NCBI GenBank assembly: GCA_037043015.1
Contig: CM073322.1
Location: forward strand, 24,580,364 to 24,644,363
Reading direction: 5' to 3'
DNA length: 64,000 nucleotides
DNA from: Bryum argenteum
Lineage: Eukaryota > Streptophyta > Bryopsida > Bryales > Bryaceae
Part shown: piece after piece, positions 6,854 to 54,396 of the stretch
Position numbering within the stretch: the stretch's first letter is position 1
How the letters are laid out: every line of letters begins with the position of its first letter
Notes under the pieces: model-generated
Database searches by the model: none
Told to the model about the DNA's origin: nothing
What the model saw: only the letters and a program-made list of their open reading frames with translations
Program-made: the position numbers and the translations under genes

Positions 6854-7580
6854 TCTTTTTCATTTTTTAAATTTTTTTCTTATCTAAAAAGATCATAGAG
6901 TTTATTTTTTACCGCTCACTATACACTAAACCAAAACATTTGAACCATTCAATTTTTACCTTCTTGTGGTTTTCGTACCTTCTTCTCAAACATAATTTGT
7001 ACGACGGTCAATTTTTTTTTACTATACCTCAGTTCGCACAAGGTGGTAGAAAATTGCAATATTTTGGTTGCAAAGGTAAAAAGAACACTTAGACCTTTAA
7101 AAGTTAACCTCAACTTTTAGAGTCTTCATCTATTTTGCACCCCTTATCCAACTCTCAACCCAAAAATTGGATGCTATTTTGGATTGACTCATATGGTGAT
7201 TTTTTTACAATACCACAGCTTCTTTGTTGTAAGCACTGATGGCGCTTTCAATCATTTATGCTATGAGCAGAAAGATTATTGTAATGGTATGTCCATGACT
7301 TTCTTTGAAGAGGCTTGATTGGTCGACCTTTCAAGAGGTGATTTTTTGACCATATGTACAATCTCATATACATACATACATACATACATACGTACAAACA
7401 TACATACAATTTTATCATAAATCTCGAAAACGGCTTCTCTCTGAATCACCTAAGTTTCAAACAATATAATTCTGTTCCTTCCTCTTCGTCCTTACCTTCT
7501 GATGGCCGCAACAATCGATCTCGGGCTTGTAAGTCTTCTCTTCGCAAGCCTTCCTTCCACAGTTGGTCGCGTTCTACCTC
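6001..7580. other. AT-rich intergenic DNA with homopolymer and tetranucleotide runs
   Basis: No gene is recognisable. The stretch holds a second copy of the diverged dispersed repeat (about 6520-6680), a run of 28 T at 6825-6852, and a (CATA)n microsatellite at about 7368-7410. Open frames here are low-complexity. Confidence 0.55.
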
Positions 7581-11849: not shown

Positions 11850-12290
11850 TTACTGGAATTCATCCCAATGAATATTTCTGAAATGGAATGGTGGACAAAG
11901 GAGACATAGTTCTTAAAACTAATATATTCTTCACTGTAAAAGCATCATTGCAAATCCAATACCGATAATATTTGGATCAAAAATATATAACTATGAAGTT
12001 TGCTATGGTTCATCTTAAGATCATGAATGCACATAAAACATTTCTAAGAAACTAATCTTGATTTCACATAATAGGCTTTCAATTGTAAAACACGCCCAAT
12101 GTTTCAAAGCTCAAAAACAAAAGCTACCTTTACTAAAATGCATGCCTTTACTAAAATTCATTCATAATTCATTGTAGTTTGCAATTTTGTACTACACAAA
12201 CGAGACTTGATTTGGGACCCAACCCAAGTGATTTCATCCAAATCGGACTTTCGACAAAGTAGTTATGGCTCTTCAAAGTTGTTGCTTTCC
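11850..12290 (-). repeat. Dispersed non-coding repeat, copy 1 (relative of the element at 27931-28537)
   Basis: On the minus strand this segment shares with three other loci a block containing CACTTGGGTTGGGT, then ATGCATTTTAGTAA and a downstream TGTTTTACAATTG stretch. The other loci are near 14.1-15.07 kb (+), 27.93-28.54 kb (+) and 51.2-52.6 kb (-). It is truncated and has no clean ends. Confidence 0.6.
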
Positions 12291-13043
12291 ATTCCAAATG
12301 TTGATTTTCAACATTTGGCACGTTTCGGAGTTAAGGGTCATACAAAAAAGTCACCGTTTCAAGAACTTTTATAGTTGTGCACTAGTAGTACAATGTACTC
12401 ATCTTCATAAATAATACTTATCAAGAGAAAATTTGAGGTCTTGAGTCTTTTCCTTCAACAACTCTAAACTAAAATGTGACTTGAAAAATCACAAGTTGAC
12501 AATATTTTTTTCACATTATTCCCATGCAAATTTGGATCCTCTTATGTTGGTTTTAGGAAATATCATATCTAACCATTCCTCATCACAGAGGAATGATCTC
12601 TTTACACATGATCACCAAATCCACAGAATGCGATGATTCTCAAATGCATGTGTTCTCAAATGACTCCACTATGAACATTTATGTTCAGAGTATTCAAGGT
12701 AGATTTGAGAGAACCAATTGGACAATTATAATGGGACGAATGAAGGACTTGGTACTTGACTTTCTCATCATCATGCACTTATGATAATAAAATAAATAAA
12801 TAAATATATTAATGACCTATGGAGCAAGTAAAGTGCAGATTCCATTTCCATCACCATCATTTTGGGTTCAGTTGGATATGATACATGACTCATAAGCTGC
12901 TATTGAGTTACTTTTTAAGTACTAATGATAAATTTTCTCCACCCTTTTCTAGTACAACTCCAGTCAAATTCAATGTTTTAGGTTTGAAACCAAAAGTTTT
13001 GACAGTAAGTATACATTTCTCTTTATGAGATTTTAACCTTTAA

Positions 13044-14087
13044 CCCCTAAAAGCCCAAGGGGGTAGGAAGCTTGAACTTCACCCTAGAAAGAGCAAGACA
13101 ATCAACATTTTTTAAGGATTTTTGAAATTAGATCTGAACAAATCCAACCGTAGGATCTTGTAGGATAGTAGTATGGAAACCTTCACAAAAAAATTCAGAA
13201 TTCTTGCCCGCACGGATTGGGAGATATATGCATTAAATGAAAAATATGCAAGTTTTGATTTTTCGGGCAGCAGACTTTGAGCAATTATTACGACTTCATA
13301 CAATGTTGAAAACGCAGCCTCTCTTGGAAATACATTGTCATGTGTAGTTCTATACCATTTTCAAAAAAAAGTAGAATTTTAGGATGTATACATATTTTAT
13401 AATGTGGCTTGCAATGGGCTGAGGTACACAAAATCTTGAAACATTGCAAAATTTCTCAAAAACTTTACACACCTTGGGGCACAAAGTGGAAAATAAAGGG
13501 TGCCGGATGGGCCCTTCACTACAGATTCAAGAAAAGAAGAATAATTGTTATAAAACACATTCAATAATAATAAAAATAGCAAGTAGCATGTGAGGTGGCA
13601 TGTGAGTTGTCGCATATGGCATCCACCCAAATCCTGTCTCACATAAGCAAGTCTCCTCCCCTTTACCCATAAAAGCAATCCCCCTTCCCTCTTATCCATT
13701 GCCCTTTTTAACATTTTGTAAGCATGTGAACAAAGGAGAGTGAGGGGAGGAATCATGGGTGACCCTCAAACCCTTTCTCGCCCCTCTCACAAATTTCAAG
13801 ATTTCCATTTTCAAGTCATTGCCCAATCAATGGCCAAACTCACACTTGATTGGCTCTAGATGCTGCCCACAAGCTGCCCAAGTCCAAATCTTTGCCCTGT
13901 TTGTGTTTGAAGCTTAGTAGAAAAAATTCTATGAATTCAAATGAGGTTTTGTAAATTGGATGTAGTTCTCAACTCACCAAACTCCTAGTAAAAAAAAAAA
14001 TACTTAGCAAAAAGTTACTTTTTTTACCCACTGGAGCCCCTCAAAAATTGGCATCGACCAGAATATGGTCGATTGGGCCTTTAGGGG
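13044..14087. mobile_element. TTAA-flanked MITE, 1,044 bp
   Basis: The ends are CCCCTAAAAGCCCAAG (left) and CCCCTAAAGGCCCAAT (right, reverse complement). TTAA lies immediately outside both (13040-13043 and 14088-14091). The interior is AT-rich and I see no transposase. Same end class as the elements at 25.8, 26.0, 27.9 and 53.7 kb. Confidence 0.7.
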
Positions 14088-14091
14088 TTAA

Positions 14092-15070
14092 CTGGGCTGG
14101 ATAAGGATATTTTGGATGGAAGTCAACAACTCTGAAGAGTCATAGCTTCTTTATTTGGAGTTTAATTTGGATGAAATCACTTGGGTTGGGTCGCAATTTT
14201 AGTCTAGTTTGTTTGGTAAAAATTGGAGATCCACACAATGAAGTATGGATTAGTGACGTGCATTTTAGTGAAGACTACCCTTTTTTTAAGGGGGTTTCAA
14301 ACATGGGTATGTTTTACCACTGCAACCAATTATGTGAGATACAATATAGTTTTTCATGATCTTTAGTTTTTTATATTTTTTCTAACTTTTTGCATAAATA
14401 TGATCTTATGATAGAAACTCAACAACTTAGTAGTTGGAAGACTTTGTTTTGAATATTTAGGTTTGGGATTTACAAGGTTTTTTCTAATCTGAAAATAGTG
14501 AAAAATACATGTTTTTTGAAAAAAATAAAATCTCACTATTCCATTATTGGATTTTAATTTAGTTTGTTGGGTTGAATATCAATTTGGATTTAGTTTTTGT
14601 AGTAGAAAGCTTGATTCCATCCAAGATGTGAGGAAGTTATAGCATTTATTTTTGTGCAAGAGGCCTAGTTTTGGAGGTTTTCTCCTTCCTCAGTCTTAAG
14701 GTTGTTTTTACCATTGTAAGGCCACTATTTGCGCCAAGAAATTTTTATCATGGTTTTCTTTTGTTCAAGGGTGTTCTTGAGATGAAGACGAACATTTTTG
14801 TAGTTGAAGATTTTTTGCAATAAGTAAATTGGTAGCTTTTTCACTTCAAAGTGAAAATGTTGAGATTTTGTGATGTCTTCCAAGTATTAATATGCTACAA
14901 TCTTGCAATCTATGAGGCCTCATAACTCAAAATTTGACCCACATAATGTACCATATATCTTTCACAAAATCGTATGGTTGAGATTTGAATATCTCACCTT
15001 TGTATCCACTTTATGATACTTAATGTGTTGTTTTTGCTACATATGAGTCAAACTATTTAGGATTTGAAAT
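14092..15070 (+). repeat. Dispersed non-coding repeat, copy 2
   Basis: It is collinear with the TTAA-flanked element at 27931-28537. Shared blocks include CTCTGAAGAGTCATAGCTTC-like and CACTTGGGTTGGGT sequences, a GTTCAAGGGTGTTCTTGAG-like block, TTTTCACTTCAAAGTGAAAA (a short palindrome), and GAGTCAAACTATTTAGG at the end. The right terminus is degraded: GGATTTG stands where GGGGTTAA would be expected. It abuts the element at 13044-14087. Confidence 0.7.
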
Positions 15071-25770: not shown

Positions 25771-25774
25771 TTAA

Positions 25775-26008
25775 CCCTTAAACGTCATATGATTTCTTGA
25801 TACCACACCCAAAATATCTTTTAAACTCCATTTTTAGCATTATTCTGTTTTTAATTTGTTTGAGCTCTATTCTAAGAAAGTATAGATCTCTTTAAGGTGC
25901 TCAGTTTGGAATTCTAAAAATTCCATTTGGTATAATGGAGTGTAAGTTATGAGCAAGATTCTCTCCAAAAAAAACCCAACCCCTCGGGTTGGGTCTGACA
26001 TTTAAGGG
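25775..26008. mobile_element. TTAA-flanked MITE A, 234 bp
   Basis: The ends are CCCTTAAACGTCATATG (left) and CCCTTAAATGTCAGACC (right, reverse complement), with TTAA outside both (25771-25774 and 26009-26012). The interior is non-coding. The right TTAA is shared with the next element. Confidence 0.8.
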
Positions 26009-26012
26009 TTAA

Positions 26013-26374
26013 CCCTTAAACGCCCTTGGGGTCTAAAACGGGCGGCCCAAAATTGGATCACAGCATCTTTTGGATTTGGGCATCATGAATAGTGCACTTT
26101 TTGAACTTGGGCATCATGAATGGACCAAGCAATGATGAGCTTGCAACCTCCTACAAGGTTATGTACCACCCCAACCTACCTACCACAATCCTTTCAAACC
26201 ACAAAATCATTCATACAAATTGTGATTTGAATTGTGAAAATTCACTTTTTGAATACATCAGAAGAAGGTGACCAGTTTGACATCAAAATATAAGTGAAAC
26301 GTTGAGTACAATGAGAGCTACAGGGAAGATTATGTTGGAATCAAGCCCCTCGGGCTTGCTCGGGCGTTTAAGGG
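26013..26374. mobile_element. TTAA-flanked MITE B, 362 bp
   Basis: The ends are CCCTTAAACGCCCTTGGGG (left) and CCCTTAAACGCCCGAGCAA (right, reverse complement), with TTAA at 26009-26012 and 26375-26378. It is nearly identical over its full length to the element at 53737-54099, for example in GCATCATGAATAGTGCAC and GAGCTTGCAACCTCC. It is non-coding and abuts MITE A, sharing one TTAA. Confidence 0.85.
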
Positions 26375-26378
26375 TTAA

Positions 26379-27084: not shown

Positions 27085-27510
27085 CAGGGATGTCAATATG
27101 GACGTCTTTTGAGTTTTTTTGGTCGGACGGACGTCCGTCCGTCCGGACGTCCGTCCGTCCGGGGGGGTAAAATGGAATTACTACGACAACAATAAAAATT
27201 TCAACCATTGAATCTTCTTGGAGCTCGCATCTAAGCCGTTTAAATTTGATCTTCTTTAGAGCGACCGAGAGAATTCGCTCCGACCAGCGCCCGGTCGAGG
27301 CGACCGAAGGTCGTGGTGACCATGAGATTTGATTCGGAGATCCACAACCGTCAGATCAATAATAGTTGACCGATCGGTCGGCGGTCGACCGGTCGGACGG
27401 CGGTCAACGGATCGGTCGGCGGTTGACCGATCGATCGACCGGTCGGACGGCGGTCGACGAATCGGTCGGCGGTCGACCGGTCGGACGGCGGTCGATCGGA
27501 CGGCCCGACC
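27085..27510. repeat. GGTCG/CGACC-rich subterminal repeats, left arm
   Basis: After the terminus come clustered GGACGTCCGTCC palindromes (27120-27160). From about 27360 there is a run of GGTCGACC, GATCGGTCGG and GGACGGCGGTC blocks. Similar sequences occur near 30.9-31.2 kb and 32.7-33.0 kb in the other arm and loop. The frames reading through them encode only low-complexity Arg/Asp/Ser repeats. Confidence 0.8.
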
Positions 27511-27524
27511 GGAATTTAAGGGAA

Positions 27525-27613
27525 AAAAATCTAAATTTAGAATCCGGTCGCTCCGTCCGATCGGTCGGGCCGACCGATCGGACGGAGCGACCGGATTCTA
27601 AATTTAGATTTTT
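27525..27613. repeat. Perfect 89-bp palindrome
   Basis: Two exactly complementary 44-nt arms flank a single central G at 27569. Each arm runs from A5TCTAAATTTAG through CCGGTCGCTCCGTCCGATCG to the centre. It sits inside the left arm of the foldback element and has an imperfect counterpart at 32599-32687. Confidence 0.97.
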
Positions 27614-27930
27614 ATTTATTTTATTTTATTTTTTAAATTTTTTTTTTAAAAAAAAATTTCCCCGGACGGCGAGGGCGTCTGAAGCCGCCTTGGCGGGGAG
27701 CTAAGGATGGCAGCCACTCCTCTTAACCCTAACCCTATTCTAATTTATTCCAACAACCATTTTGAATTTCTTAACAACTCCCTCCCTAAAGTTTTTCAAG
27801 ATCCAGATTACACTATTTGGGGTTCCCGCCCAAATAAGATTCTCCTTGCTTTGAGCATTACGATCTCACTAATGGAAAAGAATCAACGGTTTAAATTTTA
27901 CAAGTGACTAAAAACTCAAGTGAACTTTAA

Positions 27931-28537
27931 CCCTTAAGCGGGCCGAATGTCGAAAATCGACATTCTGGATGACAGAAACTTTGGAGAGCCATAACTTCTT
28001 CATCCGGACTCCGTTTTGGACGAAATCACTTGGGTTGGGTCCCAAATCAAGTCTAGTTCATGTAATAAAAATCTCAGACCCGTACAATGAAGTATGAGTT
28101 AATGGCATGCATTTCAGTGACAGCAGCCTAGTTTTAGACATTTTTTCCTTTGTAAAATTTAGGGCAGTTTTCACCATTGCAGGGCCATAATTTGCACAAA
28201 GAAATTTTTCTCATGGTTTTTTTTTGTTCAAGGATGCTACTGAGATGAAGGTGAACAACATTCTAATTGGTGACTTTTTCATTGCAATAAGTCTAATGGT
28301 AGCATTTTCACTTTAAAGTGAAAATGACGAAATTATGTGATCATTTTTGAGTATTAATACATTATGATCTCGCAATCTATGAAGCCTCATGACTTAAAAT
28401 TTGACCCACATGATGTTCAATATGTCTACGACAAGATTGTACGGTTGAGATTTGGATAACACACTTTTACCTCCACCTATGACAATGCTTTTGAGGATGT
28501 GTTCATTTTACTACAAATGAGTCAAACCATTTAGGGG
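27931..28537 (+). mobile_element. TTAA-flanked element inserted in the foldback left arm, 607 bp
   Basis: The ends are CCCTTAAGCGGGCC (left) and CCCCTAAATGGTTTG (right, reverse complement), with TTAA at 27927-27930 and 28538-28541. The opposite arm of the foldback has the unoccupied site, reading ACTTTAAGATCC on the complement with a single TTAA (32282-32285). This proves insertion with TTAA duplication. The interior is non-coding and is the intact reference for the dispersed copies at 11.85, 14.1 and 51.2 kb. Confidence 0.88.
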
Positions 28538-28764
28538 TTAAGATCCTACGGTTGGATCTTCTAAACATTGTTTCAAATGGGGCTTTATAAGCATGGAGAA
28601 TTTAGGCAATTTCGCATCAAGGATATCTAGGGATTAAGATCTCTTTATTTTATCTATAAATTATAACCATACTTAAGTTACTTTTGCGAATTGATTGATG
28701 ATTCATTTAATCTTATTATCATGGTCCGGGAGATGTTACTTACTTTGTACTACTTATGGCATGT

Positions 28765-29665
28765 TGATGTTTAACAACTTAAAAGAGAAAATAGGATGAT
28801 GTTCATGTGTTTTTTAGTTTAAATTACGTATTTTTCTTTAATTCCCAAATTGCAAACTTTAGGAACAAGCCTAATGTCTTAATTCACTGTGAAGGGCACT
28901 TGGTATTTTTGGGGTGTAAGTTCTTAGTGTCATTTGCCAAAAATACATAGCATCATAAGGGTCAAATAAGATTAAATAAAAAATCTTTACTTGAGAATAA
29001 GAAAACGCTTCCACAAAGATTATTTTTATTCAATACAAATTTTATTGCCATATAAATCAATTGGGGTCAATATCAACTAATCGCATCTTAAAATAATATA
29101 TCATTGTATATTTGATCATGTAGTATTATGAATTGCTATAATAAGATATTGAAGATACATCACTTTCTACAAAAATAAAAAATAACATATGCCATAAACG
29201 TGGACATGACTCATATTTATTCAAGAGTTATGAACATCTACCAAGATCAATTAAATGAAAAATCTATATTTACACATTACCACTACGTAACTTGTTAAAT
29301 GTTTAGGAGAGTCTTATAGAAATATAATCTTCATACTCACACATACACTTGAAAGACAAATATTAGCACATAATACTTTGTAGTATTGTTCTTTTAAATT
29401 TGGGTTGCATGAATTTGTATTGTAAGTTTTATGTTATATGTCTTTTTCCTTCACATATTTATATACTTATATGATGCTAATAGCCTTTCAATATAGTACA
29501 TGATTGGATATTCACTCTAACGCTCAACTACTAAAGGCCCAATCAACCATTTTGTACTCTATTCCAAATTTTGACAAGATGTATCTGATTTAAAAGGATT
29601 CTTGTTGGACTTATTTTTTACCTCCGAGATGTAAGATGGGTTGAAAACCTCATCTACATTACAAA
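28765..29665. other. ~0.9-kb segment present only in the left arm
   Basis: Left-arm similarity to the right arm stops after ACTTATGGCATGT and resumes at ACCTAGTTTGGAATCATG. In the right arm these flanks are only about 3 bp apart (near 32065). The intervening sequence is very AT-rich, without coding frames, terminal repeats or a clear target duplication. It may be an insertion in this arm or a deletion from the other. Confidence 0.6.
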
Positions 29666-30130
29666 ACCTAGTTTGGAATCATGTATTGTTCACACCAACC
29701 CTTCAATCACAAACATGACAAGGTTTGCATAATATTAAATAGCTTATTATAAAAGAAAACTAGTAGTATTCTTCATAGATAAGTATTGGCCTTTTTCATA
29801 TAAGATAAAATTTAAGGAAACCATACAAATAAATAAGTAATAAGAATAGAAATGAGAATTTTATTTTGCTATTGAAAGTTTAGGTGTCTTTAATCTATTA
29901 CAAGAGAATTATTAATTGTTATGAGGATTTCAACTACAACAATTTAATCTTAGAATTAAGGTTTTTATATTGTCTTTGGGAAGAAAGTTTACAAGAGTTA
30001 GAAAAATCACATTTCTTAACACATTTATTTTTCCTTCAAACCCCCCACTTTTTTAGGGTTAAATAAACAACCACCCATTTGGATTCAAATAAAATTTGCT
30101 TAGATACTTAGATCCGTAAATGGTTAGTAA

Positions 30131-30491
30131 GATAGATAGATAGAAACTCCGGTCCCTTTCTAAGGGGCCGGCGTGAATGAAGTGTCCGTTCATAATGCTA
30201 ATATCCCGATGGCCACCGGACAAGGGGAAATTGGAACAATACTACTTCCCCCTCTCGAGGGTGGACACTATAACTATGCTAGTTTCTAGCCTAGTTACTA
30301 GTGCCTTGAGGATACTTGACATAGTATCCCCCCAAAGGACTTTGAGGTACCCATACTACAAGGTCCAAGGACCCCCCACAATAGTTGGGTGGACTATAGT
30401 GGTGAGCACCATGCCGGCATGGGGAATGGAACCCACAACCTCCTCAATGGGGGCCATGAGCCCCAACCACCAAGCCAAGGCTTGTGGTGCC
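30131..30491 (-). mobile_element. tRNA-derived SINE, copy 1 (inserted in the foldback left arm)
   Basis: Reading from 30491 downward, the head GGCACCACAAGCCTTGGCTT is followed by GGTGGTTGGGGCTC (A-box-like) and GGGTTCCATTCC (B-box-like). The 3' end is a short (TATC)n tail. The element is flanked by a perfect 14-bp duplication TAAATGGTTAGTAA (30117-30130 and 30492-30505). The right arm of the foldback holds the unoccupied site at 31587-31600. It shares its full length with the copy at 47621-48031. Confidence 0.85.
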
Positions 30492-31002
30492 TAAATGGTT
30501 AGTAACTATAATATTTTTCATTATCATAAGTCAATGTGAATATATTGCAAATTCTATCAAAGCATGACATTGTACCCCTAAAGAATTCCAAGTGATTCAT
30601 GGATAGTTAAGATTCATATGAACAATGAGGGGTTATTTATAATAAGTTCTATTTTTCATGTGTGTCCAAGCCCATAAGATCTTTTGAGTAAAACATTCCC
30701 TTTTATGAAAAGAAGATCTTCCCGACATTCCCCTGACAAAATCGGCATGTGGATTAATGCCCTGATTTAGATTGTAGGTACAATGTCAGGTACCTAAAAA
30801 TAGACAATTCTTAAATGCAAGCAAGAGGAGGAAGAAGAAGGGAGAAGTGGAGAGATGAGGGAGCGTTGGTGAGTGAGAGAGGACGAGAGGAGCGCAAGAC
30901 ACCGACCGGTCGCTCGGTCGATCGGTCGACATCGGTCGGTCGCTCGGTAGGTCAATCGGTTGGTCCCTCCGTCGATCGGTCGCTCAGGCCATAAGCCAAA
31001 GT

Positions 31003-31082
31003 TTTTTTTTTCTTTTTTTTCTTTTTTTTCTTTTTTTTTTCTTTTTTTTTTCTTTTTTTTTCTTTTTTTTTCTTTTTTTTTC
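31003..31082. repeat. (T8-10 C)n tract in the foldback loop
   Basis: About eighty bases of T runs of 8-10 separated by single C lie at the symmetry centre of the foldback element. Open frames through it are artefacts of low complexity. Confidence 0.95.
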
Positions 31083-32598
31083 CTTGAATTCCGGTCGCGC
31101 CCTCCGACCGATCGGTCGGCCATCGACCGCGTCCGATCGATCGACCGAGCGACCGACCGATGTCGACCGATCGACCGAGCGACCGGTCGGTGTCTTGCGC
31201 TCCTCTCTTCCTCTCTCACTCACCAACACTCCCTCATCTCTCCACTTCTCCCTTCTTCTTCCTCCTCTTGCTTGCATTTAAGAATTGTCTATTTTTAGGT
31301 ACCTGACATTGTACCTACAATCTAAATCAGGGCATTAATCCACATGCCGATTTTGTCAGGGGAATGTCGGGAAGATCTTCTTTTCATAAAAGGGAATGTT
31401 TTACTCAAAAGATCTTATGGGCTTGGACACACATGAAAAATAGAACTTATTATAAATAACCCCTCATTGTTCATATGAATCTTAACTATCCATGAATCAC
31501 TTGGAATTCTTTAGGGGTACAATGTCATGCTTTGATAGAATTTGCAATATATTCACATTGACTTATGATAATGAAAAATATTATAGTTACTAACCATTTA
31601 CGGATCTAAGTATCTAAGCAAATTTTATTTGAATCCAAATGGGTGGTTGTTTATTTAACCCCTAAAGGCTAGGGGGGGGGGTTTGAAGGAAAAATAAATG
31701 TGTTAAGAAATGTGATTTTTCTAACTCTTGTAAACTTTCTTCCCAAAGACAATATAAAAACCTTAATTCTAAGATTAAATTGTTGTTGTTGAAATCCTCA
31801 TAACAATTTATAATTCTCTTGTAATAGATTAAAGACACCTAAACTTTCAATAGCAAAATAAAATTCTCATTTCTATTCTTAGTACTTATTTATTTGTATG
31901 GTTTCCTTAAGTTTTATCTTATATGATAAAGGCCAATACTTATCTATGAAGATAGTATTAGTCTCCTTTTATAATAAGTTATTCAATATTAAGCAAACCT
32001 TGTCATGTTTGTGATTAAAGGGATTGGTGTGAAAAATACATGATTCCAAACTAGGTAGTACATACCATAAGTAGTACGAAGTAGGTAATATCTTCCGGAC
32101 CATGATAATAAGATTAAATGAATCATCAATCTATTCACAAAAGTAACTTAAGTATGGTTGAATTTTAGATAAAATAAAGAGATCTTAATCCCTAGATATC
32201 CTTGATGCGAAATTGCCTAAATTCTTCATGCTTGTAAAGCCTCATTTGAAGCAATGTTTAGAAAGATCCAACCATAGGATCTTAAAGTTAACTTGAATTT
32301 TTAGTGACTTGTAAAATTTAAACCGTCAATTCTTTTCCATTAGTGAGATCGTAATGCTCAAAGCAAGGATAATCTTATTTGAGCGGGAACCCCAATTAGT
32401 GTAATCTGTGTCTTGAAAAACTTTAGGGGGGTGGGGGGGAGTTCTGAACAAATTCAAAATGGTTGTTGAAATATATTAGAATAGGGTTAGGGTTAAGAGG
32501 AGTGGCCACCATCCTTAGCTCCCCACGAAGGCGGCTTCAGACGCCCACGCCGTCCGGGGAGATTTTTAAAAAAAAAGAAAAAAAAAAAAAAACTTTTA

Positions 32599-32687
32599 AA
32601 AAATCTAAATTTAGAATCCGGTTGCTCCGTCCGATCGGTCGGCCCGACCAATCGGACAGAGCGACCGGATTCTAAATTTAGATTTTT
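32599..32687. repeat. Imperfect palindrome, right-arm counterpart of 27525-27613
   Basis: It has the same 44-nt arm design centred on C at 32643, with three mismatched positions between its halves. Compared with the perfect version, every change is CG to TG or CG to CA. Confidence 0.9.
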
Positions 32688-32699
32688 TTTTTTTTTTTA

Positions 32700-32782
32700 A
32701 ATTTTTTTTTTCTTTGGTCGGGCCGACCGCCCGGTCGACCGCCGACCGATGAGACGGCCTGGCCATCAGCCATCTGCCCTTT

Positions 32783-32817
<35 letters not shown>

Positions 32818-33060
32818 CTTTTCGGTCGGTCGACCGCCGACCGATCAGACGGCCACTGCTCTACCGATCGCCCCGGGTTGGGCCTGTCGGCGGGCCAGTC
32901 GCCCGGGCCAAAGACCGATCGCCCGGGCCGAAGACCGGTCGCCTGGGCCGAAGACCGGTCGCCCCTTTTACCTTAGGTAAACAGTCCAAAATCTCTAAGT
33001 CACGGACGCTCCCATAACCCCCTGCGGACGTCCGACGGACGTCCGGACGCTGTGACATCC
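32700..33060. repeat. GGTCG-rich subterminal region, right arm
   Basis: A long T run (about 32784-32817) lies between CGACCG-rich blocks. A short tandem of GGTCGCCCGGGCCGAAGACC-type units (about 32905-32965) follows, then clustered GGACGTCC palindromes before the CCCTG terminus. Confidence 0.8.
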
Positions 33061-38989: not shown

Positions 38990-40729
38990 CTATCGCCTAT
39001 CCCCTATCGCCTTTGGCCTATCGCGCGTCTTCTTCGACGACTTCGGCTTATCCCCCTGAAATACAATCTTCCTGGGCACTAAGTCCTTCCCTCGTAGGCC
39101 CTTCGGGTCCTTCACATTCGGTTTCGGCTTCGAAGATGGCTTTGAAGATGGCTTCGAAGATGGCTCCGTCATGGGTAGGTTATCGGGCGCGGTGGGTAAT
39201 TCTCCATCGGGTCGCTTTACGAGACAGGACTTCACATCGCGGGTTATCGTATCTCCGATACCCAGCCAGGGTTTTTGTAGGGAAATGGAACTCCTCGCCG
39301 TGTTGGGACTCAGTACGGTCAAGTCGCAGGGCAATTCCTCCTCCATCAACTCTGCGGGCCCCAACGTTTTAGTATCGTATAGGTAAGGTTGATCGAATCT
39401 TCCGCCGGGAAATACAATTTCCCTGTACAATGCCTGCATAAGCCACAGTCGAGCCTTCTTTCCGGGCCATTCCTGCCATTCGTAGCCGAACAACTTCTCC
39501 CTCGGCAACTGCTGATTATTTCCACGGAGGAGCACATACTCCCAAAACGCAAGGCTGGCGACGTACCCGCACTCCCAAAGTTCCCCCTGCATCGGAACCT
39601 TCAGCTTCACCACCCTCCGCTCTTGCCAGTTCTTCCAATTGCTTGATCCAACTTTCACATGTTGCGCCAATGCCCACGCCATGTGCACTATGAACTGAAA
39701 GTTGTACGCTCGAACGTCATTGTGCATGTTCAGCGTGTCGATGTGGTACGTCACAGTGTCCTCCACTATATAGATGCTCCAGTGTCCCTTATTTTGGTAG
39801 GGAACAACTAAAGTGTTCACCAGCGGTTCCGTTGTCCGAAGCGTTCTGAATATAGAAACAACCACAGAATCCCATGTGGCGTCCTTCTCTCTCAAACAAC
39901 TAGTGATAACTTGACCTAACCAATTGTGAGTTAGGTGGTACTGCATCCGTATCTTGGGGTGTGCTCGATACACGATGTGTCGGAGCATGAAGTCCATAAA
40001 CGAGCCGTCCAACTCTCGGCTATCGCCTGTGACGCAGGTCCAGCCCGATTGATCCGTTGGTAACCCTACAGCTTTCCTGGAATCGGGACCAAATACAATC
40101 ATCGTCCAATGGACATCGCCCACCTTCTTACCCGGCGGTCTGCGCAGGGAGGTGGAAATCAAGGAAAGCACAATTAGTACACTGCTCATTCGGCAATCAA
40201 TATCCAATAACCTATACGATAGTCTGTACCCGAAAGTCTACCCCTGAGTCTCTACCCGATAGACTACTCGATAGCCTGTACGCGATAGCCTACTCGATAG
40301 CCTGTACGCGATAGCCTACTCGATAGCCTGTACGCGAGAGCCTACTCGATAGCCTGTACGCGATAGCCTACTCGATAGCCTGTACCCGATAGCCGACACA
40401 CTAGTCTCTACCCGATAGCCTACAGAGAAGACAGTACACGATAGCCTACACAGAAGTTGATTCCCGATAGCATACAGGGTGGACTACACAGAATTTAGAG
40501 AAATGAAATACCTTTCTTTCAGAAGCCTGAGTATGAGTCCCATGTTGGCTTCCACTTCGTAAGCCGTATGCGTTGCTGCCTCAAAGCACAGACTTGGCTC
40601 GAAGTTCCAATACGGCAGATCGGAAGTGCGTTGAATGGCATGCTCACGAATCATACAAGTATAAGGAGGATTCGGCGAGTATGGCTTTAACTCAATCGTG
40701 GAATGAGTCCGGGATAGAATACTATCCAC
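38990..40729 (-). CDS. Ulp1/SENP-type (C48) cysteine protease exons of the MULE accessory gene
   Basis: This is a predicted SUMO/ubiquitin-like protein peptidase carried by the transposon. Two minus-strand segments join in phase: about 40729..40512 (ending GLILRLLKE) and 40139..38990 (RPPGKKVGDVHWTMIVFG...). The intron of 372 bp is GT-AG, leaving AG plus A as an Arg codon. The catalytic set is present in order: His in NKGHWSIYIV, Asp in YHIDTLN, and Gln-Cys in MQGELWECGYVA, the usual Ulp1 H-D-Q-C arrangement. The C-terminal ~130 residues are basic and Ser/Pro/Lys-rich with a short SSKP repeat. The intron holds a 26-bp tandem array. The upstream boundary near 40.73 kb is in a different frame from the long ORF before it, so either a frameshift or an unseen junction lies there. 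Ulp1-like genes are known cargo of KAONASHI MULEs; the role in transposition is unknown. Confidence 0.75.
40257..40388. repeat. 26-bp tandem array of CGATAGCCT units
   Basis: The unit CGATAGCCTACTCGATAGCC plus TGTACG recurs about five times with a 26-bp period, for example at 40283 and 40309. Looser CGATAG repeats extend on both sides (about 40205-40480). It lies within the probable intron of the Ulp1 gene. Confidence 0.92.
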
Positions 40730-42207
40730 GGTTCATTCCGCTCAACGCCTGCCTTTATCTCTGCCAACGTCTCCTCAATCCACTCCTTCGATACATTGGC
40801 CTGTTCAAAACCAGGAGGAACACCATCTGATTCAGACGGAGAATCAAGTATGATTTCATCCATGTAGATTACATCCGCTCCAGATAGCGGAAAAGCGTGC
40901 TCCGGTACTTCTCCAGTTATGTTGGTCGTGGGAATTACTTGGATGCGTCTGAACCCGCTCTCAGTCAAAGGCATTGGCGCGCATTGCGATAAATCAAAAG
41001 CAGACCCTAGACTGCAGGATGCTTTCGGAGTGCGCAAACCCTGCCCGAGAGATATGTCGTGCATTACCTGAGTCCAACCAATTGTCGTCTCGTCTACGCT
41101 AGAAGCAGCGGCGTCTGTAGGCGCTGAAGTAGGCGCTCGAGGTACATCTGCCGATGCCATGTCGGCCACGTTCTGCTGTGGGAGGGCACTATCGGGTTTC
41201 CCTTCGACCTCCCTCTCCGTAACGTTTTGGCTCGGCAGCAATATTTCCTCCAAACTCTCGGCGACTGGAACCGCCAAATCCGACTTCGGCAGCACATTAT
41301 CGTCTACCTTCTCGGGTAACCTCTCCGGCGATTCCTCCCTCTCCAGTACATCTGCCTCTACCCTCTCGGGGAACCCCTCCAAGAAGCCATCTTCCCTCAT
41401 CGGCACGAACGACTCATCTTGCCTATCGACCTCGTCAGCTGCACGCACATCCATCTCTGGCCTCTCCGCCTCCACCTCCATGGGTGTCACAGCTCCCTCT
41501 TGCCTCTCGGTTACCTCCTCACTTGGACCCACGACCTTCTCTGGCCTCTCGGCCTCCACCTCCATGGGTGAATGAACTCCCTTTTCTCCATCGGAAACCC
41601 CCGAAGTGAGACCCTCATCCATCTGTGGCCTCTCGGATTCCGCCTCCGTAGGTGTAACAGCTCCTTCTGATCTCTCAGCGACCTCCTCCGTCAGACCCAC
41701 ATCCTTCTCTCGCACGACGACCACCTCCTCCATGGGTGTGGAAGCGTCCTCTCCCGTATCCGCGGCCCCCTCCGCGATACCAAGGTCATCACCTGTGCTA
41801 TCGGCCACATCATCCGTTGATGTCTCGGCTTCCTCTACTGCTCTCTCGGTCACCTCCTCCGCCGGACTGACATGCTTCTCTGCTCCAGCGGTGCACTCCG
41901 TAAGATTAGGATCAGTCGAATCGGGAACATGAGATCCAACTTCGTAACCTCCATGCACAGCGATAAGTGCTTCCGCTCCTTCTACATCCCGCGTCTCCGT
42001 TGACATGTCCGCGGCTTTGTCCGCTACGGGTTTAAGTTCGAACCGATACCTTTCGTTGTTACAGAGCTTCGTTATCGCCTTCTTGCAATCGGTCATGTCT
42101 TGTTGTCTCGCGACCACTATAGGATGGTCGTAAACATGAGTAATCCCGTTTGGTAATTCGATCGGTTCCAGAGCGTCGGGTATATCTGCACATATCCGGA
42201 ACATCAA
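40687..42207 (-). CDS. Acidic repeat-containing MULE ORF, 506 codons
   Basis: A long uninterrupted frame with no known domain. The N-terminal part (ALEPIELPNGITHVYDHPIVVA) appears globular. The centre is Glu/Val/Ser-rich with degenerate ~30-residue repeats of the form TPMEVEAERPEMD / VTERQEGAV, strongly acidic and probably disordered. The true 5' edge is probably a splice acceptor just inside the frame (TGTGCAG before ATATACCC), so the first residues are likely intronic. It lies between the zinc-finger-like ORFs and the Ulp1 exons on the same strand and is probably an exon of one long gene. The junction phases I tested with its neighbours did not all agree, so the transcript structure is unresolved. 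Confidence 0.55.
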   Translation of the reverse strand: MMFRICADIPDALEPIELPNGITHVYDHPIVVARQQDMTDCKKAITKLCNNERYRFELKPVADKAADMSTETRDVEGAEALIAVHGGYEVGSHVPDSTDPNLTECTAGAEKHVSPAEEVTERAVEEAETSTDDVADSTGDDLGIAEGAADTGEDASTPMEEVVVVREKDVGLTEEVAERSEGAVTPTEAESERPQMDEGLTSGVSDGEKGVHSPMEVEAERPEKVVGPSEEVTERQEGAVTPMEVEAERPEMDVRAADEVDRQDESFVPMREDGFLEGFPERVEADVLEREESPERLPEKVDDNVLPKSDLAVPVAESLEEILLPSQNVTEREVEGKPDSALPQQNVADMASADVPRAPTSAPTDAAASSVDETTIGWTQVMHDISLGQGLRTPKASCSLGSAFDLSQCAPMPLTESGFRRIQVIPTTNITGEVPEHAFPLSGADVIYMDEIILDSPSESDGVPPGFEQANVSKEWIEETLAEIKAGVERNEPWIVFYPGLIPRLS

Positions 42208-42289
42208 AACTCAGCGCTTTCGTAAATGTATATCATAATAAGAATAGCCTAAACCCGAACATGATAAGATGATAAAACATGGACGATAA

Positions 42290-42706
42290 TTACATGTTGT
42301 GCTTCCAATGAAGTGGAGGTCGAGGTCTTCTCGTAGTAAGCACATATCGTCTAGTGTATGCCATGGCGAGATATGCGCTAGGAAGGCATCCGATAACCCA
42401 CTTCGCGGGACCTCGTTCTCGTGTCTGCTTCACCAAGTCGATAATTGCTCGGGCCCGAACATAAGAGATGAACGTGTTCGGGGCCACCCCACTATCGGGC
42501 ATACTCCCATCAAGTCGATCAAAGAGAGCCTCAACTTGAGGTTCTCCGTCACCATACTCGACCTCATTTGAACAACATCCATCCCCATCACTTATCGTAT
42601 AGGTGAAAGGCGCCTTCCCATCCGTTAATTGCCCTCTCCCGCAATTTCCCAAGTCGTTCGCGGCTAACTTTCGTGTTCGGGTGACACATATTGTTTCCAT
42701 CTGCAA
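42290..42706 (-). CDS. Probable exon of the MULE accessory gene (138 codons)
   Basis: The open frame contains FISYVRARAIIDLVKQTRERGPAKWVIGCLPSAYLA-type sequence without a recognised family. It is preceded on its strand by a good acceptor (CTTTGCAG, before 42700) and followed by a donor candidate (CAACAT before GTAATT, 42293). An overlapping second frame near 42.59-42.79 kb also looks protein-like, so a frameshift is possible. It is most likely an internal exon between the ORFs at 42.86-44.37 and 40.69-42.21 kb. Confidence 0.5.
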   Translation of the reverse strand: MQMETICVTRTRKLAANDLGNCGRGQLTDGKAPFTYTISDGDGCCSNEVEYGDGEPQVEALFDRLDGSMPDSGVAPNTFISYVRARAIIDLVKQTRERGPAKWVIGCLPSAYLAMAYTRRYVLTTRRPRPPLHWKHNM

Positions 42707-42854
42707 AGAACGGAGTACCCGATAAGTACAATGCTAGATATCGCTTATACGATAACCAACAAGGACAGACTTCGTTACACGACACATACACTCTCGTATC
42801 CGATAATCAAGAAAGTAAACCGAATGAATATCGGGTGCCCGATAGGAAGGAAGC

Positions 42855-44366
42855 TTACGGAGAATTAAAGCCCTTGGTGATGAACCAACACTTCGAAGTC
42901 TTGCCTCTCGCGGGCGATGCTCGATTCAACGCGCGCTTTCTTGAGCGTATCCACAATCGTTTGCGCCGCACGTCGTGTGTCCATGGCATTGGCGGGAGCA
43001 GCGGTCGAATGAGGTCATTTGCAGCGGTGTAGTGGAAAAGCATGTTATGATTCCAATGCAATGACTCCCATTCTAAACCATGAACAGCATCGTATGTAGC
43101 CATCCGCTCCCGGAAGACAGCTTCGCGTGATTCCAATGCTCGCCTGGCTTTCGCCTTACCCGATACATCCCAATCACGCAGATCAGACTCGCGTTCTAAG
43201 AATGCCCATGTGCTGCTTATGGAGTTCATCCAGAACTCCGGAGGTGGTTCCTCCCATGGTGATTCCACGTGACCGCAAATAACTTTGCACGCGTCCAACT
43301 CCCACTTCGGGACATCGGCAATGAACGCCTGCCCGATAGCAGTCTTGAAGGGCATTGCGTTCCTCCCCTGTCCCACTAACTCCGCGACCATGCGTTTCAG
43401 GTCTTCCAAATCCTGCACACTGGACAGCGCACCATCCGCAACTAACCCGTGCGTGAGGAGGATGTAAAGGGCAGTCCTTGGGAGAGGCTCCGGAGTCTTC
43501 ATACTATACCCGCGGAACACCTCCTCTCGTACACGCTCCATGTGTGTAGTACGTGCCGAATCCAGTTGTTTCGCCTTGAATCGGAACTGTGAGTCTTCCC
43601 ACCTTCTTTCCCCCACTATTCTCCTAAACTGCTCCAGGTACTCAGACACATCTTCATCCTCGTCACTGCTATCCGATAGCTCTTCTGCTGCCCTATTGAC
43701 TACCTTGTACGCACTCGCATCTGCTTGAGAACCACCTTCTATACGAACACCAGGAGAATTTGTTGCTTCCAGTTGGTCTCTCTGCAAGGCCGAGATAGTT
43801 CTCTCAGAACTGGAAGGCGGATGAGAGTCGTGGCCGAGAGCCTCGTCCTCTCGGGTATCGTCATGGACACCATCCGCATGACCATCGTCCCCGATAGGAT
43901 CCACATACTCCGAAGTATCGTTCATTGGAGCCGGTGATTGATGTCCGCCATCATCATCGTCGTTGTTCCCTTCGTCAGATGCATCATCAGCTTCTGAATC
44001 CACCCGTGCACGAGAGGCCGAACTACGCGTCTTGCGTGGGCGAGTACTGTCATCGGACCTCTCGTCCCGTCTCTTCGATAACACAGTCCCTCTACGCCTC
44101 CTCTGGGGTTTCTCTGATACCTCAGGCACACTCCGGAAAACCGCTATGGCTCTCTCCTCGTCTGACGCATCTTGTATGTCCTTCAGAAACTTAGCTACCC
44201 CAGGGATATCGAGGTTGGGGTACGTCTGGCATCTTACCGGTTTCTTAGGACACTTCGCATGAAAGAGATGAATGTTGAGTCTGTGCTTCTGGAAGTGCGC
44301 CTGGCAATGAGGACATTTGTACATCTTCACTTTGTTGTCGTGTTTGTCAATGACCGTCTCGCACAT
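42855..44366 (-). CDS. Zinc-finger-like N-terminal MULE ORF, 503 codons
   Basis: A long continuous frame starting MCETVIDKHDN. Residues ~15-45 contain YKCPHCQAHFQKHRLNIHLF followed by HAKC, a CxxC...H...(H/C) zinc-finger-like cluster. A long acidic Ser/Asp/Glu-rich stretch and a helical region (SEYLEQFRRIVGERRWEDSQ) follow. The C-terminal part is globular-looking (PRTALYILLTHGLVADGALS, EFWMNSISSTWAFLE, LEWESLHWNHNMLFHYTAAN). The frame ends just after a GTAAGC donor (42858), suggesting that it splices onward. I infer this is the 5' exon of the transposon gene that ends in the Ulp1 domain. Confidence 0.6.
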   Translation of the reverse strand: MCETVIDKHDNKVKMYKCPHCQAHFQKHRLNIHLFHAKCPKKPVRCQTYPNLDIPGVAKFLKDIQDASDEERAIAVFRSVPEVSEKPQRRRRGTVLSKRRDERSDDSTRPRKTRSSASRARVDSEADDASDEGNNDDDDGGHQSPAPMNDTSEYVDPIGDDGHADGVHDDTREDEALGHDSHPPSSSERTISALQRDQLEATNSPGVRIEGGSQADASAYKVVNRAAEELSDSSDEDEDVSEYLEQFRRIVGERRWEDSQFRFKAKQLDSARTTHMERVREEVFRGYSMKTPEPLPRTALYILLTHGLVADGALSSVQDLEDLKRMVAELVGQGRNAMPFKTAIGQAFIADVPKWELDACKVICGHVESPWEEPPPEFWMNSISSTWAFLERESDLRDWDVSGKAKARRALESREAVFRERMATYDAVHGLEWESLHWNHNMLFHYTAANDLIRPLLPPMPWTHDVRRKRLWIRSRKRALNRASPARGKTSKCWFITKGFNSP

Positions 44367-45767
44367 GTCCGATCACGCCCATGCATCTCGAGGATGAGAA
44401 GCCTTGCGTCCATCGGGGCCCATTCCTCCTTCCGAAGTGTGTTTTTTCCACCCCAAAGACTGCTCAACCTTCTTGGTATCCGGGTTGTACTTGATGCGAG
44501 TTGCCTTCAATTCGATATTGGATGCCGATAAAGCGGCCTTGCATGCGCATATTGATCCAAATTTTTCCCATATCTCTGCGAGTCTCTACGAAATCACACA
44601 TGGTAGAGATTTGCATACTGACTCGTCGATGTCGATAACACCAAAACCTAGAACAAAAGATAGACAACAGACGCGACACGAGATACGAGAGACGATCGTC
44701 ATAAGCGGTAGGCGATAGGCGATAGGCATTACGAGGTAGACGATACGTCATAAGCGTTAGGCGATAGGCGTTACGAGGTAGACGATAGGCATCACGACGT
44801 AGACGATAGGCGAAACATCGACCCGTTTCTAGACAACGGATGTTGCACAACATAATCTCCAACAAAAACAACAAACGTTGCAAAACATAATCTCCAACAA
44901 AAACAACAAGCATTCCTAACCATAATCTCCAACAAAAACAAGTATTAACGCTCTACAATCGGCAATTCTCCATTTCTCGAGTAAGCCCTATCGTGACGCA
45001 AAAAAAAAATCGAACAAAGACAAATTCAAGATACCAAAGACTACTTTTGTCAATCCATAAAATTCTGCTTCAACACCTATCGTGAATGCGACCTACCACC
45101 AACGTTAACTGAATTATGGAGATATGCATTCTCGTATGGGCGACATTCCTCGTTCTAACATGACGCCAAATTATTTGCATTCGACCACCAATAAACCAAA
45201 CTCTAAACCCTAATTGCGGAAGTGAGCTCCATGTCGCTTGTTCGATCGTCACAACTTAAAACGCTACACACCGAGGCGTAAACGACAATTCGAATAGCAA
45301 TGGCAACTCACCGGAAAGCGTCGGAATCGAAAATGTGGGAGAGTTTTCCGCAATCGACGAAGCGTAGGAGGAGCGCCACGGAATTTCCACGAGAATGCGC
45401 GAAGATGGCAAATGAAGTCGAGTTTGCCAAAGGCAAACGTTGCCATTCCAAAGATGCCAAACCTTGCATGGGCGAAATGACGCGAGCAATGATGGCGTCC
45501 ACTTCGAGCGCCGCCCTCGTCCTCGACGGCCGCCACTTCCAACATTTGAAGTGATAACTCACTAATTTTTTTATCATTTCACCATCGTGCATACCGATTC
45601 AAAAAAAGAATACTATCAAAACACTCAAAACCTCATCATTCCGTCTCATCGGACACCGGATTCGCAAATCTCACACATCGCATTCCGCTCAGCGCATCGG
45701 ATGTGACATGTTGGTTATGATATCATGGATGAATGAAAACTAGTACCGAGAACATATAAATGGATGA
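44367..45767. other. MULE non-coding region with short tandem repeats
   Basis: This is the interval between the 5' end of the minus-strand ORFs and the right inverted repeat. At about 44700-44815, units like GGCGATAGGC(G/A)TTACGAGGTA repeat. At about 44845-44945, CATAATCTCCAACAAAAACA recurs three times. Overlapping short frames near 45.26-45.59 kb have no recognisable product. It may hold the promoter of the accessory gene. Confidence 0.6.
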
Positions 45768-51239: not shown

Positions 51240-52610
51240 CAGTTTCACTTTTTTTGGGTAGGTTTTACTGCAATTTTGAGCAGATTTGAGCATGCCCTAA
51301 TTGCACTTTGGACGTTAGCATGCCCTCACGAGGTTTCATAAGTGTAATTGAAAGTGAGATATTCAAATTTCAAGTGTACAATCTTCTATACTAGTAGAGT
51401 GAATGTAAATATTTGAGATCATGTTTCGAATCATAATAGTACTTAACAAAGATCTTTGAATTTTACTAAGTTTACTCTGGAGGAAAATCATTGATAATAA
51501 ACCTTATGCAATCGCAAAACCACTTTATTAACTATTTCTTATTCTTGTCTTAAAAACACCTTAGTACCAAAGGAATCATGAGATTTTTTCTTGTCCAAAA
51601 TAATGGCCTTGCAAATGTGAATCATCTCAAAATTTTCAAGTGAAAAATAGTCCAATTATAGGGGCCTTGCACCAAAATGCATGCCATATATGTATCCCCA
51701 TAATATCTTAGATCAACCCCTGGAAAACTCAACCTAACTTTAATCAAAAGATGCATTTTCAAATAAAGTGTCTGAGAAGAAGTTGAAGGTAAATTATTCG
51801 GATTTTATCTATACAATCTTGAAGTAAACTTATTGTAGGTCATGTAGATAAAATTATTGTGGAAATTCCAACAACAAACCAATTGCAACAAAAAAATCAC
51901 TAACTACATAGTTCCTTCACCTTCATTCCAAGAACACCCTTGCACTAATAAAATTTGTCAAAAAGATCTCTTGGCTCATGTAGTAGCCTTGTAATGGTGA
52001 AAAAATACCAAAAAAATACCAAGGAAATATGGTCCATAACTAGATTCTTTGCATTCAAACTTATGCCTCATATTTAAAACATCCTTGATCTCAAAATGTT
52101 TCTACCACTAAAACTAAATGGAATCTATCCAAAAAAGTAAAGGTAAAATCCAATGGTGGATGAAGGAGATATAGCATCCATCAAACTTCATCTCAAACTT
52201 CATTCATTTTTTACTTTTTTATTGTAGAAACCTCATCGCTAATCCAATTCCAGAGTTATTTGAATCAAATATCTTCCAGCTAGATAGTTACTAAGATTCA
52301 TCTAAAGATTATAGTTAATTTATGTAATAAAAATTCATGAAACGCTATTTCTTGATTCCATATAATCACCTTGCAATGGTAAAACATGCCCCATGTTTAA
52401 AACCCAAAAACAAAAGTTGTCGTCACTCAAATGCATGCCATTAATTCATATTTCATTGTATGGGTCCAAAATTTTTCCACTCAAACTAAACTTGATTTGA
52501 CACCCAACCCAAGTGATTTTTGTCAAAAATAAAGTATAGATGAAGATATGGCTCTTCAGAGTTTCTGTCCTTGATTCAAAATGTAAAAGAACAATATTAT
52601 GGATGTTTAG
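51240..52610 (-). repeat. Dispersed non-coding repeat, copy 3 (probably two overlapping copies)
   Basis: On the minus strand the right part reads CTCTGAAGAGCCATATCTTC, CACTTGGGTTGGGTGTC and TGGCATGCATTTGAGTGACG. It is collinear with the elements at 14.1 kb and 27.93 kb. Blocks for a CTTGTCC/GCCTTGCAA region and the GTTCTTG region occur twice (about 51.5-51.7 and 51.85-52.0 kb), suggesting two nested copies. No intact termini are visible. Confidence 0.6.
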
Positions 52611-53732: not shown

Positions 53733-53736
53733 TTAA

Positions 53737-54099
53737 CCCTTAAACGCCCATAGGGTCTAAAACGGGCAGCCCAAAATTTGAATCACAGCATCTTTTGAAC
53801 TTGGGCATCATGAATAGTGCACTTTTTGAACTTGGGCATCATGAATGATCCAATCAATGATGAGCTTGCAACCTCCAATAAGGTTATGTACAACCCCAAC
53901 CTACCTACCACAATCCTTTCAAAGCACAAAATCATTCATACAAATTGTGATTTGAATTGTGAAATTTCACTTTTTGAATGCATCAGAAGAAGGTAACCAA
54001 TTTGTCATCAAAATATAAGTGAAATGATGAGTACGGTGAGAGCTACAGGGAAGATTCTGTTGGAATCATGCCCCTCTGGCTTGGTTGGGCATTTAAGGG
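53737..54099. mobile_element. TTAA-flanked MITE B, second copy, 363 bp
   Basis: The ends are CCCTTAAACGCCCATAGGG (left) and CCCTTAAATGCCCAACC (right, reverse complement), with TTAA at 53733-53736. The right TTAA (54100-54103) is interrupted by the next MITE. It is nearly identical in the interior to 26013-26374. Confidence 0.85.
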
Positions 54100-54102
54100 T
54101 TA

Positions 54103-54396
54103 AGGTAGACAGACCTATAACCGACACCTTAAGGATTTTAGCACATGATATTAAGGTATATATATTTTTTAGAATTTTTCATGTGTGCAAACATAAGGTT
54201 CTTGTTGAATGCAAAAAGTTTCGTGATTTTATTTGCATTATTCAAATAGTTATAATTGTTTGAAGTGAAAAGTTGCTTGCGACCTAAAACCGATCTCATG
54301 CTCAAATATACAAATGAGGTACATCTGTCCTTTCAAAATCTAGGAATTGGGCTAGATCGGTTATTGGTCGCCTGTCGGTTTTGGGTCTGTCTACCT
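54103..54396. mobile_element. TA-flanked MITE, AGGTAGACAGAC type
   Basis: The ends are AGGTAGACAGACCTATAACC (left) and AGGTAGACAGACCCAAAACC (right, reverse complement), with TA on both sides (54101-54102 and 54397-54398). It shares only the terminal AGGTAGAC with the MITEs at 9.6 and 46.4 kb, so it is a different member or subfamily. It has landed in the TTAA bordering the preceding element. Confidence 0.82.

Follow-up and report, generated by a model that had tools for sequence, protein, structure and literature searches.

MITE607, a TTAA-flanked non-autonomous element of probable piggyBac type in Bryum argenteum, and the transposase-bearing elements that share its left end

Which transposase moves an element that stands in one arm of a palindrome and is missing from the other? 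The question was raised by a 607-bp insertion, here called MITE607, in a 64,000-bp stretch of the Bryum argenteum genome (the window, i.e., the whole stretch that was analysed). A sequence-only reading of the window had attributed the insertion to a TTAA-specific, possibly piggyBac-related transposase, in part on account of ends that begin with CCC, as does the piggyBac element of T. ni. The latter, which came from an insect, is a standard transposon of genome engineering, and the piggyBac group, piggyBat of bats included, is known mainly from animals.

From its sequence, the feature is almost certainly a copy of a recently amplified, non-autonomous MITE of the piggyBac superfamily in a plant nuclear genome. 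The basis is threefold: there are several hundred copies, of which those sampled are about 1% apart, the TTAA target is duplicated, and transposase-bearing TTAA elements exist with an identical 46-bp left end. L-numbers below denote loci that were cut out of the genome, the window copy (M607_L001) being counted once.

The element and its surroundings in the window

MITE607 starts with CCCTTAAGCGG directly after one TTAA and finishes with CCATTTAGGGG directly before another (Table 1), and its terminal repeats have CCC next to the TTAA (CCCTTAAG / CCCCTAAA). The length of 607 bp, the high copy number, the short terminal inverted repeats and the flanking target duplications are those by which a MITE is recognised. 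In the right arm of the palindrome the element is missing and a single TTAA stands in matching flanks, so that both observations of the sequence-only reading, TTAA-CCC...GGG-TTAA on the left and one TTAA on the right, were borne out. The arms that flank MITE607 differ by 7.3% on its left side (11 mismatches in 150 bp matched) and by 5.8% on its right side (13 mismatches in 225 bp matched, with 3 gap columns), and the two flanks, when joined, align with window 32585-32060 at 90% identity over 533 columns, gap-free at the junction. The palindrome itself is imperfect, measures 5.4 kb (window 27383-32873) and has outer repeats rich in CGGTCGACCG. Two other MITE607 copies (L002 and L004) likewise adjoin inverted relatives of their own flanks.

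Table 1. Positions of MITE607, its empty site and related elements in the window, with the three transposase-bearing elements chosen for a matching left end
Feature	Position	Strand	Remarks
MITE607, 607-bp non-autonomous element, almost certainly of piggyBac type, without transposase inside	27931..28537	+	Sequence, copies, flanks
Target site duplication, left copy, TTAA	27927..27930	+	TTAA on both sides at 18/18 distinct sites
Target site duplication, right copy, TTAA	28538..28541	+	
Empty site, single TTAA of the mirrored arm	32282..32285	-	Matching flanks on either side
MITE607 left end, 42 bp (46 with TTAA)	27931..27972	+	Same as left ends of L046 and L060; 41/46 bp in L045
MITE607 right terminal repeat CCCCTAAATGG	28527..28537	-	Only 8-10 bp common to right ends of L045, L046 and L060
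Palindrome GAATGTCGAAAATCGACATTC, MITE607 bp 15-35, centre bp 25	27945..27965	+	Putative site of the transposase C-terminal cysteine-rich domain
Second TTAA MITE family	26009..26378	+	Ends like L041 by eye; palindrome at bp 25 of the right-hand end
Third TTAA MITE	25771..26012	+	Adjoins the 26009-26378 element with a common TTAA; palindrome at bp 25 of the right-hand end
Further member of the 26009-26378 family	53733..54103	+	Palindrome decayed
1052-bp stretch with TTAACCCCTAAA at both ends	13040..14091	+	Palindrome at bp 25 of one end
L060, 5809 bp, TTAA-flanked	Genome locus		Left end 46/46 bp as MITE607; intact 1331-codon open frame
L046, 6036 bp, TTAA-flanked	Genome locus		Left end 46/46 bp as MITE607; frame broken
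L045, 5887 bp	Genome locus		Left end 41/46 bp against MITE607; 1226-codon open frame

Ends of this kind are more frequent in the window than expected by chance, as TTAACCCYTAA is found 13 times against 0.06 expected. Among the further elements, the stretch at 13040..14091 would be one element, which may be compound. Sequences related to the MITE607 interior but diverged from it (67-80%) lie at window 14117-15061, 12132-12334 and 51336-52569 and point to an older and wider family in the window. The coding content comprises a Rubisco small-subunit exon, which matches chains of the chloroplast small subunit, together with exons for TIR and NB-ARC, all of which mark the host as a plant. Several long frames also follow one another on the minus strand (415, 507, 147 and 505 aa) at window 38990-44372 and are possibly another mobile element; the one among them that was tested (38990-40237) gave no Pfam match.

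Copies, TTAA flanks and empty sites in the genome

The 615-bp stretch made up of MITE607 and its two TTAAs is present in at least 40 full-length copies that are 99-100% identical to it (40 scored of 5702 first-look candidates), and the right end of the element was found at 590 sites genome-wide at two or fewer mismatches, the reversed control giving 0. All eight loci of the first search had TTAA at both ends. For a flank-blind test, TTAA was then dropped from the left-end search pattern. This gave 385 sites at two or fewer mismatches against 377 with TTAA in the pattern, a comparison in which mismatches may fall inside the TTAA itself, exact sites being the cleaner measure. Twelve loci from the flank-blind list were cut out, and every one had TTAA at the left; nine of them were MITE607 copies, with TTAA at the right in 9/9, and the other three were the left end of the L046 element (L049), another place with the same flank (L050) and a deletion derivative (L053).

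The sequence-only reading had allowed that most copies might turn out to lack TTAA on both sides. The reverse was found: of the exact left ends, 97 among the first 100 listed directly follow an exact TTAA (the others being C3:17298460, C5:12594767 and C8:12488439), and all 18 distinct MITE607 insertion sites among the loci cut out have TTAA on both sides. Empty relatives with a single TTAA were found for four of these 18 sites, i.e., the window copy, L002, L004 and L059 (its relative being in L048). The target duplication is thus the 4 bp TTAA, with two TTAAs at filled sites and one at empty sites. Self-matches of w26009, L006 and L045 were put down to neighbouring elements or local repeats and excluded from the empty-site table as artefacts, the rows for L047 and w13040 fell below the cut, and L008, L056, L061, L051 and the second and third rows of L059 were left uncounted for want of a clean single TTAA in a well-aligned relative: the relative of L051, at window 30251-30500, reads CCAA, and one relative of L056 has TTAA, but within A/T-rich sequence.

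The length of the duplication bears on the idea that MITE607 is a Tourist-like MITE of the PIF/Harbinger group, in which the duplication would be the 3-bp TWA and the TTAA would be TAA plus a conserved neighbouring base. TTAA does include both TTA and TAA, and Tourist MITEs with TAA/TTA duplications are a class named for angiosperms (PMC10004981). Against this, filled sites have two full TTAAs and empty sites one, and the long elements that share the left end, described below, carry PF13843, so that the idea has next to no chance of being right.

The empty sites also bear on the claim that the palindrome proves the TTAA duplication. The duplication stands, and is supported by the three further empty sites; "proves" is too strong for the palindrome alone, since one arm pair is compatible with seamless excision from the right arm. 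The right arm could once have borne MITE607 and lost it by such a piggyBac excision, the insertion then predating the palindrome; piggyBac excision can restore TTAA free of any footprint (PMC7351741), and an empty arm would look alike either way. The 18 copies differ by a mean pairwise divergence of 0.98% (maximum 2.1%) against 5.8-7.3% between the arms, which makes the burst look younger than the arm duplication and this order of events improbable, although gene conversion or differing constraint could bias the comparison. Given arms that differ by 5.8-7.3% while the MITE607 copies differ by about 1%, insertion into the left arm probably followed the formation of the palindrome.

The end motif TTAACCCYTAAA occurs at 23,184 sites genome-wide, against 401 for the same pattern backwards, while the TTAA-scrambled control TATACCCYTAAA gave 51 sites, or 77 when read backwards; these figures count motif sites, as distinct from intact or paired elements. 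The motif looks like the plant telomere repeat, which is CCCTAAA.

Transposase-bearing relatives and the origin of MITE607

A profile search of the genome with PF13843 gave at least 116 loci (777 first-look candidates, of which 116 were scored and 116/116 were over the cut-off, with a best E of 7e-82) and none in 14 named control genomes. Thirty of the 116 loci were compared and fell into six groups at 45% average-linkage distance. Three transposases were found 3.2-3.3 kb downstream of left ends of the MITE607 type, among 100 of 602 and 100 of 377 left-end positions listed. Three loci (L045, L046 and L060) were chosen for the matching left end upstream, two (L061 and L047) for a nearby MITE end, and six (L039-L044) for transposase diversity, regardless of ends. 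In this last set, both TTAACCC ends lie inside 7 kb in one of the six (L041), one end is visible in four and none in one (L044), the sole visible end of L043 being the variant TTAACCCCTCAA. L041 measures 5199 bp and L061 6141 bp, and by eye their ends look like the ends of the MITEs at window 26009-26378 and 53733-54103.

All six translated frames of L041-L046 contain PF13843 (E 1e-63 to 1e-82) with no other Pfam match, zinc fingers included, and the assignment of L060 comes from the genome profile search, in which it is a row among the 116. The frames of L045 (P0001) and L041 (P0002) match the T. ni transposase 6x67 at 4e-26 and 2e-29 and that of piggyBat, 9c0f, at 2e-21 and 8e-24, respectively, with three D aligned in each case. 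Counted along the alignments, D268/D346/D447 of 6x67 face D888/D975/D1092 of P0001 and D572/D651/D764 of P0002, and the intact L060 frame has the same DDD motifs (D993, D1080 and D1197) and a cysteine-rich C-terminus. A C-terminal cysteine motif is found in four of seven frames (P0001, P0002, P0005 and L060) and is missing in P0003 and P0006, which are cut by stops, and in P0004. Ahead of PF13843, some 330-850 aa in the frames have no Pfam match. Stretches of at least 700 aa upstream of PF13843 were seen in L045 (1346-5023), L060 (914-4906) and L043 (3151-6711); in L045 and L043 they match nothing in Pfam. In a protein search with P0001, for which at least 58 matches were listed once 38 of 1018 candidates had been scored, segments of the N-terminal extension (about residues 173-466) recur between loci with some 28-53% identity, which makes it probable that the extension is coding.

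The sequence-only reading had called for a DDD-type PGBD transposase with matching ends. Such genes, with PF13843, are present in L046 and L060, whose left ends are identical to that of MITE607, and the DDD triad is present in the intact L060; the match holds for the left end (46/46 bp) and fails for the right (only 8-10 bp). A non-piggyBac transposase such as Harbinger in the matching autonomous element had also been envisaged, and the long elements with the same left end instead carry PF13843. The TTAA flanks and these elements together support the reading of a TTAA-specific, piggyBac-related transposase.

The superfamilies Kolobok and Sola3 also use TTAA. One of them could move MITE607, its likeness to piggyBac ends being incidental, and the right end of MITE607 is indeed not identical to that of any transposase element examined. 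This would leave to coincidence both the identity of 46/46 bp, palindrome included, with PF13843 elements and a palindrome position equal to that of T. ni piggyBac, and it is judged highly improbable. Under the favoured piggyBac assignment, a transposase of the L045/L046/L060 clade would bind the left tip of MITE607, its C-terminal cysteine-rich domain would dock on the palindrome at bp 25, and the element would be excised via a TTAA hairpin and reinserted at another TTAA. Because no more than 8-10 bp are common to the right end of MITE607 and those of L045, L046 and L060, the mobilising transposase could also be a clade member outside the loci examined, or belong to another clade.

The origin of the MITE can be followed in part through two longer relatives. 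L102, a TTAA element of 978 bp, aligns with MITE607 at 74% in two blocks (MITE607 1-344 and 175-615), which makes MITE607 look shortened, and L103 (981 bp) is likewise akin to it (73-79%); MITE607 thus looks like a shortened member of a 0.98-kb MITE lineage. Over the 46 bp of the left tip, L102 is 80% and MITE607 100% identical to L046. The elements L046 and L060 are 73% alike over about the first 650-680 bp and identical in the first 46, so this tip is probably under constraint, and MITE607 would have either gained it by recombination or kept it by constraint. A plain internal-deletion derivative of L045, L046 or L060 was considered for MITE607 and dropped, the match being the 46-bp left end only. 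The deletion model does fit L053 (921 bp), in which a left part of 302 bp and a right part of 625 bp, both of L060 type (96-97%), are joined. Two other candidates were rejected: L061 as right-end parent, where the MITE right end close to a transposase (C2:22527926) belonged to a separate MITE relative (77-79%), and L047 as a transposase element, where the left end near the transposase proved to be a MITE607 insertion.

L060 (194-6002) and L053 (613-1533) are each inserted in a TTAA inside the end of another element (TTAACCC-TTAA-ACGCCC), and the end of the host element, TTAACCCTTAAACGCCCAAGC, reappears when their flanks are joined. With a TTAA inside it, the terminal repeat provides its own target and permits nesting.

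The palindrome at bp 25 and the piggyBac group in plants

The left end of T. ni piggyBac has a palindromic repeat at bp 17-33, in which the minor groove is narrowed around bp 25; in the solved complexes the C-terminal cysteine-rich domains bind it as a dimer, and do so at just one of the two ends (PMC7351741). In the present elements, a palindrome centred exactly on bp 25 was found at one end in 9 of the 11 tested. MITE607, L046, L060 and L053 have its sequence in common, and the window elements 25771, 26009 and 13040, L041 and L061 each have a distinct one of their own; in L045 the stem is interrupted and in 53733 it is decayed, and neither has a clean stem at bp 25. At the opposite end, the best palindrome had the same centre in 0/11 (in L046 it was at 25.5, with a 5-bp stem that was as long in 72/200 shuffles). 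The palindromic end is the one upstream of the transposase gene in L041, L046, L060 and L061. Taken singly, the palindromes at bp 25 vary in strength, the number of shuffles out of 200 with an equally long stem ranging from 0 to 12 (the latter in L041).

The same position stood out when ends were averaged. In a set of 41 representative ends taken from 66, mean symmetry peaked at bp 25.0 among the centres tried (0.412, the mean being 0.257), and bp 25 was again the top centre in 40 unselected ends (the first 40 listed, 29 of them independent), at 0.402 against 0.273, a symmetry that 0/500 shuffles reached at any centre. At least 6 of 9 positions about bp 25 pair in only 9/40 of the unselected ends, and single ends scatter at other palindrome centres. 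In L053 the centre is at 32, a 7-bp offset that comes from nesting. Two ends of the TTAACCCCTAAMGTCGAAAAGAGCCC form, in L061 (end at 7552) and L039 (end at 708), have the centre at 30, not 25.

From its position, which equals that of the cysteine-rich-domain site in T. ni, the palindrome would be the site for the C-terminal cysteine-rich domain of the transposase. It could alternatively be a by-product, e.g., a foldback that makes a hairpin in single strands, with no protein bound to it, and it is able to form a hairpin. Yet its centre coincides with the dimer site described for T. ni (bp 17-33, groove narrowed near bp 25; PMC7351741), it is one-ended in 9/11 elements, and frames P0001, P0002, P0005 and L060 finish in a cysteine-rich motif, so that the by-product explanation is unlikely. 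Elements like MITE607 are of a known kind; what looks new is the family-specific palindromes at a fixed position, the scale and the plant host.

The likeness to T. ni piggyBac (PDB 6x67/6x68; PMC7351741) extends to the TTAA target and its duplication, the DDD triad, the asymmetric ends, the left-end palindrome centred on bp 25 and, in four of seven frames, the C-terminal cysteine-rich motif. The differences are that the proteins are only distantly similar (94.5 bits for P0001), that the open transposase frames run to 897-1331 codons (P0001, P0002, P0004, P0005 and L060) against 594 aa, that the two-ended elements measure 5.2-6.1 kb, that the palindromes differ by family, and that the host is a plant. 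The transposase of piggyBat is likewise of piggyBac type and, despite the matches given above, distant in sequence. Short, non-coding, piggyBac-related elements of animals, among them MITEs of coral and elements of vesper bats, presumably depend on piggyBac transposases acting in trans; the likeness is by description only, and the hosts, unlike here, are animals.

For plants, the record of the piggyBac group looks thin. A list of seven superfamilies for angiosperm MITEs includes PiggyBac (PMC10004981), alike in name and presumed superfamily, in a passage that only names it and gives no ends or transposase; in the C-fern, the piggyBac repeat class makes up 0.00% with 1230 hits (PMC6890710); and piggyBac is said to have been isolated from plants too (PMC10813416). 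In the literature surveyed, mostly outside subscription journals, no plant piggyBac transposase described with its ends was found.

A wider picture is offered tentatively, as one possibility: a native piggyBac world, recently or perhaps still active, in which the palindrome at bp 25 would be a swappable address, one per transposase clade, and in which MITE607 would have burst after an older 0.98-kb MITE took the 42-bp left tip of the L046/L060 clade. A plant with at least 116 piggyBac transposase loci, long open frames and near-identical non-autonomous families would be a source of plant-native TTAA transposons, and its family-specific palindromes at one position would amount to a natural experiment on the co-evolution of a DNA-binding domain and the end sequence.
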